From: Natrinema sp. CBA1119
GTDB lineage: Archaea > Halobacteriota > Halobacteria > Halobacteriales > Natrialbaceae
Assembly: GCF_002572525.1 (NCBI RefSeq)
Contig: NZ_PDBS01000002.1
Coordinates: 186,001 to 250,000 of the forward strand
Direction: 5' to 3'
Length of the DNA stretch: 64,000 nucleotides
Below are positions 45,535 through 54,894 of the stretch, piece after piece; the stretch's first letter is position 1, and each line of letters opens with the position of its first letter. The notes under the pieces were generated by a model that was not told the DNA's origin, did not search any database, and saw nothing but the letters and a program-made list of their open reading frames with translations. Made by a program: the position numbers and the translations under genes.

Positions 45535-46791
45535 ATGGGGATGTTCCAGCGGGATCGTCAAGTGTTCGCGGATGCCGAACCACTTGACGACTCGTATGAG
45601 CCTGAGGATATCCGTGAACGGGATGTGGAACTCGAGAAATATCAACGAGCTCTCCAACCCATCATCGATAACCGCCCGACATCGAACATTTTCCTGTACG
45701 GGAAGACGGGAACAGGAAAAACCGTCGCGACCAAATTTATGCTATCGCACTTGGAGAACGATGCTGCCGAGTACGATGACGTTGATCTCTCAACCGTCTG
45801 GGTCAGCTGTGAGAATCTTTCCTCGTCTTACCAGGTCGCAGTCGCACTCGTAAATGAGCTTCGTGAAAGCCAGAACAGAGATCGCATCAGTACCACCGGC
45901 TATTCCCAGCAACGTGTATTCGATATCCTCTACGAAGAACTCGATGCACTCGGTGGTACTGTTGTGATTGTCCTTGACGAGATCGACAACATCGGTGACT
46001 CCGATGATATTCTCTATGGACTTCCTCGAGCGCGGTCGAACGGTTATGTCAGCAACGTTCGCCCTGTGATCGTCGGTATCAGCAATGACTTCCAGTTCCG
46101 GGATAATCTCTCGCCGAAGGTCAAGGACACACTCGCTGAAAAAGAAATCCTCTTTCCGCCATACGACGCGAACCAACTGCGCTCGATTCTCGAACCACGC
46201 GCTGAAAAAGCGTTCTATGATGGCATCCTCGATGGAGACGTGGTTCCGCTTTGTGCAGCCTTTGCCGCTCAGGACACTGGATCGGCCCGACAGGCGATCC
46301 GTCTACTTCGTGAAGCTGGAGAACTGGCTCAGGCTGAAGATGCCGATATCGTGACCGAGGAGCACGTCCGGGATGCACAAGACGAACTCGAGAAGAACCA
46401 ACTCTATGAAGGGATGCAAGAACTCACGACACAGGGGCACGCAGTCCTCTGTGCACTCGCTTATCGCCAGGCGCTCAACGAAGTTCCTGTCCGGTCTCGA
46501 GATCTTTACGAACGGTATATAAAGATATGTGATAGACTTGATGCTGATAGTGTGAGCGAACGGCGTGTTCGCGATCACCTTTCAGATATGAACATGCTTG
46601 GGCTCATTAACGTCTATGAACGGAACGAAGGGCTCTCGGCCGGCCGTTATCACGAGTACGAGCTTGATGTCCCGCTAAACGCAGTTCTTGAGGTTCTTCT
46701 CTCGACGAACCGGTTTAAAGAGGTGGCAAACATCATTCACTCAATGGCTAATGACAACAATCTCCTTCAGTCAGATATTTCTGATTATTGA
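45535..46791 (+). CDS. orc1/cdc6: Orc1/Cdc6 replication initiator
   Basis: A 418-residue AAA+ initiator that binds ORBs and loads MCM. Walker A GKTGTGKT is at about 56-63 and Walker B VVIVLDEID near 145. Sensor-type segments (VIVGISNDFQFRDNLSPKV, DTGSARQAIRLLREAGELA) and a C-terminal winged helix (about 320-400) follow. Length normal. The start ATG at 45535 is chosen as first in frame after the promoter region. ORBs of related sequence lie both upstream and downstream, so gene and origin form one unit that defines this replicon's replication. Confidence 0.95.
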   Translation: MGMFQRDRQVFADAEPLDDSYEPEDIRERDVELEKYQRALQPIIDNRPTSNIFLYGKTGTGKTVATKFMLSHLENDAAEYDDVDLSTVWVSCENLSSSYQVAVALVNELRESQNRDRISTTGYSQQRVFDILYEELDALGGTVVIVLDEIDNIGDSDDILYGLPRARSNGYVSNVRPVIVGISNDFQFRDNLSPKVKDTLAEKEILFPPYDANQLRSILEPRAEKAFYDGILDGDVVPLCAAFAAQDTGSARQAIRLLREAGELAQAEDADIVTEEHVRDAQDELEKNQLYEGMQELTTQGHAVLCALAYRQALNEVPVRSRDLYERYIKICDRLDADSVSERRVRDHLSDMNMLGLINVYERNEGLSAGRYHEYELDVPLNAVLEVLLSTNRFKEVANIIHSMANDNNLLQSDISDY

Positions 46792-47853: not shown

Positions 47854-48414
47854 TCAGTGGCTGAACGTGCCATCCGGCGCAAGGACAAGTCCCGTCCGGA
47901 TCTCGAGGTCGACTCGGCGAAGATGCTTGCAGCCATCGTCTGGCTGGCGCTGCTCGAAATCAGGACAGGTACACGTTGTTGCCTCAATATCGACCTTGTA
48001 GGTGTTCCCGCTTTCACTCTTGACCTCGTAGAGCGGGCCCACTGTCGCAGAGCAGACGTCCAACTTCTCGTTCAGTGCACGGCGAGTTCGTGGGTCGTCG
48101 ATCGAGTAGCCACCTGCCTCGAGTGCAGTCGCTGGCTGGCGGTTGTCGCAGGGGATAGTGAACTCGTCGCGACGGTTGCGTTCTTGGCCACACTTCCTGC
48201 AGCGCCAGTACCGTGTACGATACTCGTAGCCATCAGTGAGATTGAGTTCGTACGGTGTTGGCTCTGCGCCCGGCAGCCATTCGTCGATCGCGACAAGTTC
48301 GTGTCCGTTCAGTCGGGCAATGTCTCCTGGATAGCTGTGATCGCGGTCGCTCGTGTGCTCGTTTGTCGGTTGATCTCGATGCGGGTCGCTCTCGGGTGGT
48401 CGATTTGTACTCAT
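47854..48414 (-). CDS. SWIM zinc-finger protein
   Basis: A 186-residue cytoplasmic protein. The C-terminal SWIM motif is TCTCPDFEQRQPDDGCKHLR (CxC..CxH) near residues 146-165; SWIM domains bind DNA or protein. A second potential zinc knuckle, WRCRKCGQERNRRDEF with a later IPCDNRQP, lies at about 70-90. The first 30 residues are polar and disordered-looking. Such proteins are frequent on haloarchaeal plasmids beside small zinc-finger genes. Function unknown. Confidence 0.8.
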   Translation of the reverse strand: MSTNRPPESDPHRDQPTNEHTSDRDHSYPGDIARLNGHELVAIDEWLPGAEPTPYELNLTDGYEYRTRYWRCRKCGQERNRRDEFTIPCDNRQPATALEAGGYSIDDPRTRRALNEKLDVCSATVGPLYEVKSESGNTYKVDIEATTCTCPDFEQRQPDDGCKHLRRVDLEIRTGLVLAPDGTFSH

Positions 48415-48525: not shown

Positions 48526-48960
48526 TCACAATGCTCTCGGGCCGCTATCGACAATACTCGCAAACGCGACGTTCTTCTGAACCTGCTCGATTTTGACGGT
48601 GGGCTCGTCACCAGGTTGGGCGTCAGGGACGATCACGACGTAACCACGTTCGACTTTTGCAATGCCGTCGCCCTGATCGCCGACAGTCTCGATTGTTACA
48701 GTACGTACCTCACCTTCCTCGACAGGAGGTCCCGATGGGGCACGGTTCACGGTTTCCCGAGAAGGAGATTGCTGTGACTCTTGTTGCATCGATGACTCTG
48801 TCGAAGCTGGTGACTCAAGAATCGCTACACGATATGTTTCGTCAGCTGACACCGCTTCATGATCAACTTCACTCAAGAGAACTTCAACAACGTATGTTCC
48901 ATTTCGTTTTTCGATTGGGGCGCTGAACAGAGAGCAAAGGGAATCGGGAATCTCGACCAT
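48526..48960 (-). CDS. TRAM-domain protein
   Basis: A 144-residue protein. The C-terminal half is a TRAM domain (about 84-140: EGEVRTVTIETVGDQGDGIA, VIVPDAQPGDEPTVKIEQV), an RNA-binding beta-barrel. The N-terminal part (VEIPDSLCSLFSAPIEKRNG, TYVVEV) is found in haloarchaeal TRAM proteins. These small proteins are proposed RNA chaperones analogous to bacterial cold-shock proteins. First gene of a minus-strand series with the SWIM gene. Confidence 0.85.
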   Translation of the reverse strand: MVEIPDSLCSLFSAPIEKRNGTYVVEVLLSEVDHEAVSADETYRVAILESPASTESSMQQESQQSPSRETVNRAPSGPPVEEGEVRTVTIETVGDQGDGIAKVERGYVVIVPDAQPGDEPTVKIEQVQKNVAFASIVDSGPRAL

Positions 48961-49459: not shown

Positions 49460-49732
49460 ATGGCTGGCATTACAGATCCACGGCCACCACTTCCGGAGTG
49501 GATTCTCGAGTGCTACGACCGGCTGTGTACGCAGGCATGTCGGCCAGACCAGGGAGAAGACAGTGTTCCGCTGATCGACTACGACGATGCCACCGACATC
49601 CTAGTCGCCGATTCAGAGCTGGCACTCGAGCAACGGGACGTTGAGTACGCCCTTACTCGGCTCCTCGAACGAGGCTACTTCTACGAAGTCGAGAACGAAC
49701 TTCGGATCACATCCCCAGAAGAGCAGTGTTGA
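49460..49732 (+). CDS. Small haloarchaeal plasmid protein with possible winged helix
   Basis: A 90-residue acidic protein: ATDILVADSELALEQRDVEY followed by ALTRLLERGYFYEVENELRI reads as a helix-helix-wing unit. The N-terminus MAGITDPRPPLPEWILECYD is typical of small plasmid genes. No enzymatic motif. Convergent with the GHKL-HExxH gene. Confidence 0.6.
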   Translation: MAGITDPRPPLPEWILECYDRLCTQACRPDQGEDSVPLIDYDDATDILVADSELALEQRDVEYALTRLLERGYFYEVENELRITSPEEQC

Positions 49733-49834: not shown

Positions 49835-51568
49835 TTATCGAAATTGGCCAGAGGAGACGCCTTCGCTCCGCTGGAGATCTACCTCATACTTGTCGAATAC
49901 GGATTCGAATCCTTCGTCGACGATCTGCTGGACGAGTTCAGCGAACGAACTTCGATTTCCTGGATCCTCAACAAGCGACCGAAACGTACTCTCGAAGTGA
50001 TGCCCATGAGAAGGCCGATCACGACTCGAGGTTTCGTGAGCGGCTTCGTGCAACACCACGAGATACAGGTCGTGCATCCAGACTGCACGCTGGCGGCTCG
50101 TCACTGCCGAGTCGGTGATCACGATGTACGTCCTGCCATCAGTCCAGGCATCGACACTCGCCTCACCGTAGTACACGTCTCGCTCAATCCCAAGCTCCTT
50201 TGCGAGCACCCGAGCGAAGCGGAGATAGCGCCGCTGATCAGCGTTCAACTGTGATTCGTCCTCGATGCGATGATAGCACGTCCAGACACCTTCTGACTCT
50301 GCTTGTTCGCCAACATCGAACGTCTCTGGCACCGCTATCGATGTATCCTCGTCAGTGGCGAGGTCGCGAAGCCGCTGGGTCGCCGAATCACTCGTATCGA
50401 GGACGACGTAACCACGCTCGACGAGTTTGTCCGCGCCTTTTTCGGCATCGCCGACCCACCCGATTTTCGGGGCCGCCTGGATCTCCTCGAGGCTGATACG
50501 GGACTCAGTCGCTAATTGGAACAGTTTGCGATCGGCCCACTGCTCGTCCGACGACTCGGATTCCATCGCCTCGATCATTACCTCCCGACTCTCAGCAGTC
50601 AGCCGGTCATCCGAGACGTCCACATACAGATCGTCACGAGCCTGCTCAAGTGCGTTGTTGATCCGCTGCCAGCGGTCACAGCCTGACTGGATATCGTTGC
50701 GGGCAAAGTTCAGCGTCAAGTTTCCCTTCGAGACGACAACCCCGCCGAGTCCGTATTCGCGTTTCGTCGTCACGTACAGGCCATTACTGTAGATATCGAG
50801 CCCCTCGTGGGGTGTGTACTCGAGTGCGAGAGTCGCATCGTCAGTTTCGCGTGTGAGCGACGGATGTGGCGAGTCAGCCACTGCCTCGAGTGGATCACCC
50901 TTGTCGACCGATTCGCCGTTGATTACGACCGAGACGCCGGTTCGTGACTGCACGTACGCGAAGCGCTTGCGAAGATCGCGAACGTAGCGCCGCCAGCGGT
51001 AACTGTCCGGATCTGGAACCTCGTCTTCGTAGTGATCGATCTCAACGAGCATCCCCTCGAGATGATGCTCAGCATCCACGAGTTGGCCATCGCGCCCACT
51101 GACGTCTGCCCACGGCCTCGAGTCGTGTCGATCTCGGTAGTCAAAGCACAGTGCGGTGCCATGACTCCAGATACGAACGGCACCCTTCGCGATGATCGCA
51201 CCCTTGCCGATGCCCCACTCGCCGATCGTCTCGTCGTCCGACCGTTGCTTGCTTCCCGAACCCAGCACTGAGAGGTTGCGTCGCCCTTCGGTCGATTCGA
51301 GGTCAACACCAGCGCCGTCATCGAGGATGAGCGATCGTTCAGGCGAGATACTGACCAGCACACGGGATGACCCAGGACTGTCGATGCCGTTTTGGACCGC
51401 TTCACGGATCGCGTCTGTGAGATCCGCCATCTGATCTTCGATAAGGTACGTTGCGACCCGCTCGTCAGCGGTCATTGTCACGGTCTTCTCGGTCGATGGC
51501 TGACTGGCCGGCCTCGAGTCAGTCGCTTCGTTTGTGGCGAACTCCGATAACGTCGGATGTTCTGTCAT
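49835..51568 (-). CDS. GHKL ATPase fused to an HExxH metallopeptidase-like domain
   Basis: 577 residues from ATG 51568; GTG 51613 gives 592 and overlaps the upstream stop (GTGA), so either start is possible. The N-terminal half is a GHKL (Hsp90/MutL/gyrase-type) ATPase: N-box REAVQNGIDS at 55-64, G1 motif DDGAGVD at 83-89, and G2 lid GEWGIGKG at 116-123. A middle region (about 190-400) follows the transducer layout. The C-terminal third ends in a zinc-peptidase signature HEAAH at 507-511 with a further His cluster HGHHFESTF about 10 residues on, as in SprT/WSS-type proteases. An ATP-driven protease or a phage/plasmid conflict protein is inferred; no characterised homologue comes to mind. Confidence 0.75.
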   Translation of the reverse strand: MTEHPTLSEFATNEATDSRPASQPSTEKTVTMTADERVATYLIEDQMADLTDAIREAVQNGIDSPGSSRVLVSISPERSLILDDGAGVDLESTEGRRNLSVLGSGSKQRSDDETIGEWGIGKGAIIAKGAVRIWSHGTALCFDYRDRHDSRPWADVSGRDGQLVDAEHHLEGMLVEIDHYEDEVPDPDSYRWRRYVRDLRKRFAYVQSRTGVSVVINGESVDKGDPLEAVADSPHPSLTRETDDATLALEYTPHEGLDIYSNGLYVTTKREYGLGGVVVSKGNLTLNFARNDIQSGCDRWQRINNALEQARDDLYVDVSDDRLTAESREVMIEAMESESSDEQWADRKLFQLATESRISLEEIQAAPKIGWVGDAEKGADKLVERGYVVLDTSDSATQRLRDLATDEDTSIAVPETFDVGEQAESEGVWTCYHRIEDESQLNADQRRYLRFARVLAKELGIERDVYYGEASVDAWTDGRTYIVITDSAVTSRQRAVWMHDLYLVVLHEAAHETSSRDRPSHGHHFESTFRSLVEDPGNRSSFAELVQQIVDEGFESVFDKYEVDLQRSEGVSSGQFR

Positions 51569-51609
51569 GGTGTCCACCCCTGTGGCACCATAGAAACCGA
51601 ACCGTGCGG

Positions 51610-51813
51610 TCACTTGGAAACAGGCATGAAATCCGGTTCGACTTGGCGCAGTCTTCCGGTATTCTCGAGGAATGAGTAGAGATCGTCGTACAGGTCAGTG
51701 TCTTCGTCGGTGCCGTCTGGGATGAACGCAACGTATACCAGTCGCCAACGATCACACAGAACCGTTGGGTGCGAATCATCACGACGTTCAACCGTCGAGG
51801 ACCATCAAGGGGA
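51610..51813 (-). pseudogene. Small ORF coupled to the GHKL gene, start codon apparently shifted
   Basis: A protein-like frame SSTVERRDDSHPTVLCDRWR then LVYVAFIPDGTDEDTDLYDD to QVEPDFMPVSK. Its TGA overlaps the GTG at 51613 of the next gene. No initiator exists in frame; an ATG lies one base out of frame just before TCCTCGACG, so a single inserted base would explain the loss. It may be a defunct or non-canonically started partner of the GHKL protein. Confidence 0.45.
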
Positions 51814-52307
51814 CGCTCAAGGAAGCCTGTCTCGCCCGCTGCATTACTCCGAACCAATGAAATGACGATTGCGACTTTTTCGTTCCCCCGGAATGAATCA
51901 TCGCATCAACTGTGATGACTCTTCCAGAATCAAGTTGCACTGCTAACTTTTCTCGAATTCCGCTTTCTTAGGCTGTGTCTGTCTCAATGACTCCGATTTC
52001 GGCGCAGTTGAAGAGTACGAACCCAACTGCAACGGCGTTCGAATGATGTCCACGAGTGGCCGCGAGTGAGCGGCCAACTGTGTGTGCAGCGGGATCCGAC
52101 ATCTGTCTGGATCAGCTGCACTCTAACGCATGTATTCAAAGGAGAAAAATCATGCTTCCAATATAGTTTGGTTCCGTCGCAGAACTAGCGCAGGAAGTGA
52201 TTGAAACGGTGTTCGCTGTGTCGAAGATTGAGCCTGAGTACCGCCGATGATCATAGTAATCGTCTCTGAGAAAGCGAAGTCCATGATACCGCTCAACACG
52301 CTCTGGT
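51814..52307. other. Intergenic, no supported gene
   Basis: About 490 bases with no frame showing conserved features on either strand; probable promoter of the minus-strand GHKL operon at its left edge. Confidence 0.35.
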
Positions 52308-53461: not shown

Positions 53462-53689
53462 GTGAGCAGCGCAAAACAACGGCTCGAGGACTTGCCATCG
53501 AGTGCGAAGTTGGTCCACATGACGCTGGAATTCGAGGGAGAGTGCACACAGAAGGAACTTGTCAAGGAGACCAGGCTCTCATCTCGGACTGTTCGATATG
53601 CGATCTCTCGGCTTGAAGAAGAGCAATTAGTTGAGCAACAAGTGTCCTTTCGAGACGCCCGTCAGAAGCTCTATTCGCTTGTGGAGTAG
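53462..53689 (+). CDS. Small winged-helix regulator (MarR-like)
   Basis: 75 residues from GTG 53462: SSAKQRLEDLPSSAKLVHMT, then TQKELVKETRLSSRTVRYAI and SRLEEEQLVEQQVSFRDARQ, a bare winged helix-turn-helix of the kind used by small plasmid repressors. Divergent from the HalOD1-like fragments, convergent with the ArdC pair. Likely regulates nearby genes (inference). Confidence 0.75.
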   Translation: MSSAKQRLEDLPSSAKLVHMTLEFEGECTQKELVKETRLSSRTVRYAISRLEEEQLVEQQVSFRDARQKLYSLVE

Positions 53690-53747: not shown

Positions 53748-53966
53748 CTACGAAGTCTCAAGTACGGCCACATCGGATGGTGTCACTACCACGCGGAACT
53801 CACTAACCGAGAACCGAATCTCGAGATCAGTCTGTGGGCCTGTCGAATCCACGACCCGCTCGAGGGCTTCGACGTCGATCATCCGCTGTAGTTGGTACTC
53901 GCCTCGATCGAGGCCCTGTTCCTCGAGTGCAGTGATGATCTCGAGCAAAAGCGGTCGATCACTCAT
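53748..53966 (-). CDS. HalOD1-like small protein coupled to ArdC gene
   Basis: 72 residues: MSDRPLLLEIITALEEQGLD, YQLQRMIDVEALERVVDST, then strands LEIRFSVSEFRVVVT and PSDVAVLE. This follows the HalOD1 pattern (helix, short loop, IDveAL helix, two-three strands). Its start lies inside the 3' end of the ArdC-like gene (8-base overlap), so the two are translationally coupled and probably cooperate. Confidence 0.65.
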   Translation of the reverse strand: MSDRPLLLEIITALEEQGLDRGEYQLQRMIDVEALERVVDSTGPQTDLEIRFSVSEFRVVVTPSDVAVLETS

Positions 53967-54894
53967 TGTCGGTCATCTCGCTGACGACGTCGATGATCTC
54001 CTGGGCGGTCGAACTGATCCGTTCAAGCCGGTCGAGAATTGTCTCCGGCTCTTCTCCGTGCCACGCGGCAAGGTAAAACACTGAGCCGCTCGTATCCAAC
54101 TCGAAGTGCCGTCCAACGATGTAACCGACCGCTTCGGCCTCGAGTTCACGTTTCGATCGCTCAGCCTCGTCGTCGACGCCACTGTGTAACAGCGCATGTG
54201 CGTACTCGTGAACGAGCGTGACAGCGAGATCTGCCTCGTTCTCACGATCATGGATGTCGACGTGTGGCTGTTCCGCTGGCCGATACTGGCAGACACCCTT
54301 GGCACTCCCATGCGACCAGTCCTGGGGTGATACGACCTCTACGTCTACTTCCAGTGTGTCTGCTGCCTCAAGGAGTGCGGGGACCAACTCGTCAGCCTGT
54401 CCCTTTGCTTCGGTCTCGAGGTCGGGCAGTGGCTCGCCGTCAGTCTGCGAAACATCGAAGACGGGCGCAGGTCGAAATCCCACGAGTCCCCTTTCCCAGC
54501 TGTCCGGAGGGGTTTCATCGTATTCACAGTCACTGCGCTCGTGGTACGAGGGCGAGTTTCCGCAGTTGGGACATCGCTTCGCAATGATCGGTGCCCAGAT
54601 CCAGATCGCTGTCTCCCCTTCTTTCACATGCCGGTCGAACTCGTTTTGCCATGTTCGATAGCCGGCAACGCGCGTTGCATGCGGACACTGGAGTTTGATC
54701 AACAGCGTGTTTCGGTGAGAGTAGTCGTGGAAGCGACTCTGAACGTCCAACCACTCTGTGAACTGCGCGCTCGAGACGGCGTCATCGACCTCGTCGACGA
54801 GATCCTGGATCCATGCTTCGATCGTACTGTGCATCTCATCATGCCGGGTGTCCGAATCGTCGAACGTTTCCCGGGAGCTGCTGCTTGTAGCCAT
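53959..54894 (-). CDS. ArdC-like antirestriction protein with zinc metallopeptidase domain
   Basis: 311 residues. The N-terminal ArdC-type ssDNA-binding domain is at about 20-145 (WLDVQSRFHDYSHRNTLLIK, GYRTWQNEFDRHVKEGETAI, WIWAPI), with an inserted Cys pair at 108/111 and a further Cys at 123 that may bind zinc. The C-terminal IrrE/ImmA-like peptidase has HEYAH at 229-233 and a downstream Glu-rich helix KRELEAEAVGYIVGRHF. Bacterial ArdC protects incoming plasmid DNA from restriction during conjugation; a similar plasmid-establishment role is inferred. Coupled to the HalOD1-like gene. Confidence 0.85.
   Translation of the reverse strand: MATSSSSRETFDDSDTRHDEMHSTIEAWIQDLVDEVDDAVSSAQFTEWLDVQSRFHDYSHRNTLLIKLQCPHATRVAGYRTWQNEFDRHVKEGETAIWIWAPIIAKRCPNCGNSPSYHERSDCEYDETPPDSWERGLVGFRPAPVFDVSQTDGEPLPDLETEAKGQADELVPALLEAADTLEVDVEVVSPQDWSHGSAKGVCQYRPAEQPHVDIHDRENEADLAVTLVHEYAHALLHSGVDDEAERSKRELEAEAVGYIVGRHFELDTSGSVFYLAAWHGEEPETILDRLERISSTAQEIIDVVSEMTDNE

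Follow-up and report, generated by a model that had tools for sequence, protein, structure and literature searches.

The locus and its replicon

The window, by which we mean the whole 64,000-nucleotide stretch of Natrinema sp. CBA1119 that was analyzed, contains a gene whose 577-residue product joins an Hsp90-like ATPase to a zinc-protease-type domain (Table 1). An earlier, sequence-only reading of this DNA had recognized the N-, G1-, and G2-box motifs of GHKL ATPases and a HEAAH motif within one open reading frame, and we confirmed that frame on the minus strand. Specifically, the N-box reads E56-A-V-Q-N60, the G1 box D83-D-G-A-G87, and the G2 box G116-E-W-G-I-G121, while HEAAH occupies residues 507 to 511 and SHGHHF ends at F525. 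The numbering of Asn-60 and Glu-508 in the earlier reading corresponds to the 577-residue form. A GTG at 51613 is an alternative start that would add 15 residues to give a protein of 592 residues, which is unlikely; relatives are aligned and annotated from the ATG. When HEAAH was back-translated, there was one occurrence in the 64 kb versus zero expected, and because the ATPase and protease motifs are retained in relatives that share 20 to 35% identity, they are far beyond chance. No Pfam model matched the fusion protein itself, and its NCBIfam matches, to a sacsin-type ATPase and to TIGR04338 (HEXXH), were below threshold. Current annotation of the fusion proteins reads merely "ATP-binding protein."

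Table 1. Features of the locus (positions in the window)
Feature	Position	Strand	Remarks
Cdc6/Orc1 gene	45535-46791		in the window
SWIM zinc-finger-like protein	47854-48414	-	same accessory stretch; weak match
TRAM-domain protein	48526-48960	-	same accessory stretch
Conserved 90-aa protein	49460-49732	+	convergent, downstream of the fusion gene; recurrent neighbor
Hsp90-like ATPase/zinc-protease fusion gene	49835-51568	-	577 aa; ATG start at 51568
Wss1/Spartan-like zincin domain	49931-50269	-	about residues 434-546; H507-E508-x-x-H511, H521, F525, W475-T-D-G478
Hsp90-type middle domain	50282-50938	-	about residues 211-429; N287 and R290 aligned with HtpG N333/R336
N-terminal GHKL (Hsp90-type) ATPase domain	50939-51472	-	about residues 33-210; E56, N60, D83, G85, G87, G116, G121
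UPF1/SMUBP2-like SF1 helicase remnant	51613-52012	-	decayed C-terminal end; small ORF of the sequence-only reading; ends in GTGA overlap
MarR-like regulator	53462-53689	+	same accessory stretch
HalOD1-domain protein	53748-53966	-	overlaps the end of ardC; recurrent neighbor
ArdC homologue (ArdcN domain and HExxH)	53959-54894	-	recurrent upstream neighbor, same strand

The source genome (5.06 Mb in nine contigs) holds a single copy of the fusion gene. Since all of the 16S rRNA genes are on another contig, the 250,099-bp contig that includes the window behaves like a plasmid, which supports the plasmid location assigned by the earlier reading. That reading had also extended the locus to position 51813 and had taken a small upstream open reading frame for a coupled gene that might encode a partner protein. 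We rejected this idea. The part beyond the fusion gene is a helicase remnant with no coupled gene, and the small frame is the frameshifted C-terminal stub of an SF1 helicase of about 750 residues that is intact in several relatives. Intact versions are approximately 752 residues long and contain AAA_11 and AAA_12 domains; they occur at L006, L009, L010, L014, L021, and L025, and in relatives there is a 4-base overlap (GTGA) between the helicase stop codon and a GTG of the fusion gene. In other relatives, the helicase position is occupied by a MarR gene or by something different.

An Hsp90-type ATPase joined to a zincin

The fusion of a GHKL ATPase with a zinc-peptidase-type domain, as described by the sequence-only reading, is supported by our analysis, but its picture of a generic clamp was too broad: the ATPase half is specifically Hsp90-like and includes both the N domain and the entire middle domain. 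When the family profile was compared with five HtpG sequences using hhalign, residues 25 to 419 matched HtpG 2 to 483 (Prob 97.5%, E 8.7e-12), so the N domain and essentially the entire middle domain are covered. Within this alignment, LNFARN of the fusion protein (N287 and R290) falls on PLNVSRE of HtpG (N333 and R336), the loop that carries the catalytic arginine of Hsp90. Furthermore, with the AF2 model of the fusion protein (pLDDT 83.5) as the query, the top Foldseek matches were all Hsp90 (E 3e-16). In VIA comparisons, residues 33 to 429 of the model aligned with Hsp90, TRAP1, and GRP94 over 350 to 366 residues (Z 18 to 19.5), while the alignments with topoisomerase ATPases covered 270 to 283 residues, starting from about residue 35 and mostly ending near 320 to 405 (Z about 17). 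The region of the N-box also had a sequence-profile match to MutL/PMS2. Across the fusion family, E56, N60, D83, G85, G87, and G121 are near-invariant.

Proteins of the fusion family match HATPase models and not the Pfam HSP90 model (PF00183). That model had no match in the window's genome, nor in any of the 97 haloarchaeal genomes searched, which include the source genome; a bacterial control was positive. Our result agrees with the view that Archaea in general are without canonical Hsp90 (PMC1525184). Given that the sampled haloarchaea have no canonical Hsp90, the fusion represents an Hsp90-like protein, made up of N and middle domains, that arrives there on plasmids. When the C-terminal part was compared with that of Hsp90 by hhalign, the sequences showed no relation (Prob 0.2%), and a colinear structural alignment is all that hints at kinship of fold.

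In a model of residues 296 to 577 (pLDDT 87), one half is an Hsp90 middle domain and the other, at about residues 434 to 546, is a zincin. The three best structural matches of the zincin half are Wss1 (Z 7.7, 6.5, and 6.4; 87 to 99 residues; rmsd 3.0 to 3.2), and they rank above aminopeptidases and selecase (Z near 5). Since Z scores below 8 are no more than suggestive, and unrelated models can reach 7.7, the placement near Wss1 and Spartan rests on fold and motif jointly. With Foldseek, the best match of the zincin half was to the mini-zincin abylysin (E 0.03). Independently of the fold, Spartan was matched at the level of sequence profiles across HExxH...HGxxF (E 0.009, or 0.02 with another profile) and was the best motif-bearing match among PDB profiles. 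The HExxH, the third histidine, and the HGxxF are present as they are in Wss1/Spartan peptidases. A search for the WLM (Wss1-type) domain elsewhere in the source genome found none.

Conservation and selection

We counted active-site residues in 47 family sequences that share less than 90% identity. HExxH and the third histidine are kept in 44 of these nonredundant members, that is, 43 in one alignment along with L106, where HEYSH is kept in its proper reading frame. The ATP-site residues E56, N60, and D83, together with R290, are kept in 45 of the 47. Taken with the zincin model and its modest top match to Wss1 (Z 7.7), the retention of the motif leaves the peptidase assignment of the earlier reading unrefuted. 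All zinc-site residues have been lost, and the ATPase retained, in three lineages of IMG/VR contigs (L062, L122, and L125 [L125/L126]), and proteolysis would therefore be dispensable in some lineages.

The dN/dS ratio of the fusion gene was about 0.08 (0.07 to 0.10) in comparisons with Natrialbaceae and 0.20 to 0.24 in comparisons with Halorubrum. Moreover, the final 150 residues are under constraint equal to that on the first 290. The fusion is an old family under purifying selection.

Distribution on plasmids and viruses

Close relatives of the gene (85 to 94% identity) are found in Natrinema, Natronorubrum, Natribaculum, Natrialba, and others, often as several copies per genome that lie on different contigs and are often decayed. 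On the contigs of Natrinema hispanicum (L002, L004, L013, L014, L021, and L022) and in genome G317, there are many copies per genome, several of which are frameshifted or broken by insertions. Relatives in Halorubrum share 55 to 58% identity, and full-length relatives with approximately 20 to 35% identity occur on plasmids of Halobaculum, Methylibium, Photobacterium, Thioalkalivibrio, Variovorax, Bosea, and Rhizobium. When a bacterial member was used as the query, 200 plasmid records were retrieved, chiefly from Acinetobacter, Pseudomonas, and Xanthomonas, and 91 of these were typed as conjugative. A copy is also held by the conjugative plasmid of A. baumannii ATCC 17978 (L142), where a gene for an M48-type metallopeptidase (L142:11099-11839) is directly upstream of the family member. 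A gene that is 100% identical to the A. baumannii plasmid copy is present on a 69-kb record deposited as "Acinetobacter phage MD-2021a" (L139; CAKLQH020000019.1), which may be a plasmid instead of a phage.

Scans of IMG/VR identified more family members on large contigs. Two haloarchaeal contigs that carry a terminase are haloviruses, and in one bacterial clade a terminase large subunit gene (PHROG 675) is nearby, along with genes for a dNMP kinase and a deoxyribonucleotidase. These genes mark the two haloarchaeal contigs and the bacterial clade as real viruses. On most of the bacterial IMG/VR contigs, two terminase models found no match, and a direct tblastn search of phages with the haloarchaeal fusion protein had no match either. 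In a midpoint-rooted tree, two haloarchaeal clades stood apart from the bacterial members: one comprises Natrialbaceae plasmids and Halorubrum, and the other a Halobaculum plasmid and the two haloviruses. Among the loci that we examined, the fusion gene is mainly on plasmids and viruses.

A plasmid of Pseudanabaena encodes an 877-residue "ATP-binding protein" near a TIR-domain gene (L149:1432-4065). It is about 30% identical to HtpG over residues 9 to 412 only and may be a further Hsp90-like protein whose C terminus differs.

Neighboring genes

The sequence-only reading had noted an ArdC-like gene near the fusion, and our survey bears this out as a recurrent arrangement on haloarchaeal plasmids. 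An ardC gene is upstream, on the same strand and within 12 kb, in 32 of 39 Natrialbaceae copies, and it is also upstream at three loci of Halorubrum, with the identity of both genes down to about 57 to 60%. Based on a rough null from an assumed density of ArdC genes, chance proximity is negligible. The copies of the fusion gene are related by descent, however, and the 32 neighborhoods are therefore not 32 independent events. Nor does ArdC need the fusion gene, because an intact fusion gene is missing from the vicinity of approximately 20 of the 51 close ArdC copies. At bacterial loci, no ArdC proximity was seen. Two more ArdC copies, 69 to 78% identical to the one in the window, are on the same contig (contig positions 11263-12192 and 131579-132499).

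Clustering of open reading frames around 44 loci yielded no universal partner gene, and no bacterial neighbor was universal. On a plasmid of P. coronafaciens, the fusion gene is part of a conjugation operon, lying between virB11 and the coupling-protein gene, which are followed by topB and ssb.

Proposed function

The domain architecture of the fusion protein is well supported. Our preferred reading, which we consider reasonably probable, is that mobile elements carry it as a zinc protease gated by ATP, with an Hsp90-type clamp that would bring a target to an active site of the Wss1/Spartan type. In Hsp90, the N domains are closed by ATP; the middle domain supplies an arginine that completes the site, and it also holds the client. 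By analogy, E56, N60, and D83 would bind ATP, R290 in the middle domain would complete the site, and the clamp would close on a protein client. The middle domain would then hold the client beside the zinc protease of the same chain, which sits where Hsp90 has its dimerization domain. There, H507, H511, and H521 would bind zinc, E508 would activate water, and the zincin would cut the held client. ATPase activity, protease activity, and the coupling of the two are inferred, as are the target and the biological role. A job in transfer or establishment is suggested by the location of the gene on plasmids and viruses, by its ArdC neighbor, and by the conjugation operon. The probable task of the protein, during entry or establishment of its plasmid or phage, is to remove or process a host- or DNA-bound protein; in haloarchaea it may do so beside ArdC. 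Caution is needed in assigning a proteolytic role, since the protease activity of ArdC, which has a Spartan-like site, is dispensable for its antirestriction effect (PMC7213743).

The main alternative, which we regard as rather unlikely, is that the protein is a DNA-protein crosslink protease that, like Wss1 and Spartan, clears covalently attached proteins (relaxase or type IA topoisomerase adducts, for example) from the DNA of the element, with the GHKL part serving as an ATP-gated loader. The nearest folds and profiles of the zincin half are the crosslink proteases Wss1 and Spartan. Against this idea, the best match of the ATPase half is Hsp90, which clamps proteins and not DNA, and no DNA-binding region was recognized in the fusion protein. 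A topoisomerase neighbor is annotated in just a few of the retrieved loci. A plasmid of P. aeruginosa has a topoisomerase III gene 10 bp upstream of the fusion gene; in Photobacterium it lies two genes upstream, and in the P. coronafaciens operon approximately 3 kb downstream, while gyrase genes are near the fusion gene in Thioalkalivibrio. The SF1 helicase directly upstream in several haloarchaeal loci would also fit such a role. The source genome had no VirB4-type ATPase over the cutoff, which speaks against it.

It is improbable, in our view, that the protein is mainly a mobile Hsp90-like chaperone, with proteolysis a side activity and the zincin serving as a structural end piece. Retention of the zinc residues in nearly all nonredundant members and equal constraint on the protease and ATPase ends both speak against this scenario, despite the three lineages that keep the ATPase with no zinc residue left. 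A mini-zincin was likened in 2014 to the Hsp90 C-terminal domain, and a common origin was proposed (PMC3890501). Consistent with a chaperone, our full-length model is colinear with complete Hsp90 chains in VIA (about 440 to 459 residues, versus about 355 for the N and middle domains, at rmsd 10 to 12), but the zincin half is without sequence similarity to the Hsp90 C-terminal domain. Finally, the earlier reading likened the pair to the sense-clamp-cut logic of conflict systems. A corresponding role as a defense or superinfection-exclusion effector, with an invader sensed by the clamp and cutting done by the protease, found no positive support and is quite improbable. The gene is on accessory replicons, but PADLOC matched only residues 56 to 153, within the ATPase part, weakly and to part of TmtA, with no match over most of the protein's length to a defense protein. 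There is no universal partner or recurring defense-gene neighbor; the gene that does recur nearby, ardC, acts in antirestriction. Tailed phages and haloviruses themselves carry the fusion gene, and a mobile-element or counter-host role fits better.

Relation to known systems

In the open-license literature, we found no description of a fusion of Hsp90 or another GHKL protein to a zincin. Within that literature, the earlier claim that the pair is undescribed holds for the architecture. We assign the protein neither to Hsp90 (PF00183 does not match it, and its C-terminal sequence differs) nor to ArdC (the ArdC N domain is absent), and not firmly to Wss1/Spartan, for which the fold match by itself is only suggestive. 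Like Hsp90, HtpG, and TRAP1, it has an N-terminal GHKL ATPase and a complete middle domain, with the ATP-site residues and the middle-domain arginine in register; unlike them, it has a zincin in place, at least by sequence, of the C-terminal dimerization domain. With Wss1 and Spartan (SPRTN, SprT), the zincin half shares HExxH, the third histidine, and HGxxF, and these are its best fold and profile matches. In contrast to those proteases, it is joined to an Hsp90-like ATPase, and their ubiquitin- or PCNA-binding parts were not recognized in the fusion.

ArdC, which is encoded nearby in the window, is similar in being plasmid-borne and in coupling a Spartan-like metalloprotease domain to another activity (PMC7213743). 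It differs in having an N domain that binds single-stranded DNA and a glutamate as the third metal ligand. The model for the ArdC N-terminal domain (PF08401) matched the neighboring gene alone, with no match in the fusion gene or its family, and shared ancestry with the ArdC protease was rejected, as there is no profile similarity beyond HExxH. Phage GHKL proteins of the T4 rIIA type also combine a GHKL N domain with another C-terminal domain on mobile elements, and 1 of 12 fusion-family members matched phrog_612 (E 3e-5). In the parts of a jumbo-phage survey that bear on them, separate items are given for SprT-like proteases, ArdC-like proteases, and GHKL proteins of the rIIA type, with no HExxH domain described for rIIA and no mention of a fusion (PMC7824862).

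The presence of a zincin at the site of the Hsp90 C-terminal domain makes the proposed kinship between Hsp90 and zincins testable. It is conceivable, and we put it forward tentatively, that the fusion proteins are a new class of ATP-dependent proteases, spread among archaea and bacteria by plasmids and phages, and, in addition, that the dimerization domain of Hsp90 descends from an inactivated zinc protease. Given that there is no sequence signal for the link to the Hsp90 C-terminal domain, we treat descent from a zincin as a tentative idea. The replicons that bear the genes include conjugative and resistance plasmids from Acinetobacter, Pseudomonas, and other hosts, as well as phages. Among familiar enzymes, FtsH has an ATPase and a zinc protease in a single chain, as does the fusion protein, but FtsH uses an AAA+ unfoldase ring, whereas the fusion has a GHKL/Hsp90 clamp. 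To our knowledge, all well-known ATP-dependent proteases use AAA+ motors. If our reading is correct, proteolysis powered by an Hsp90-type clamp would represent a different solution.
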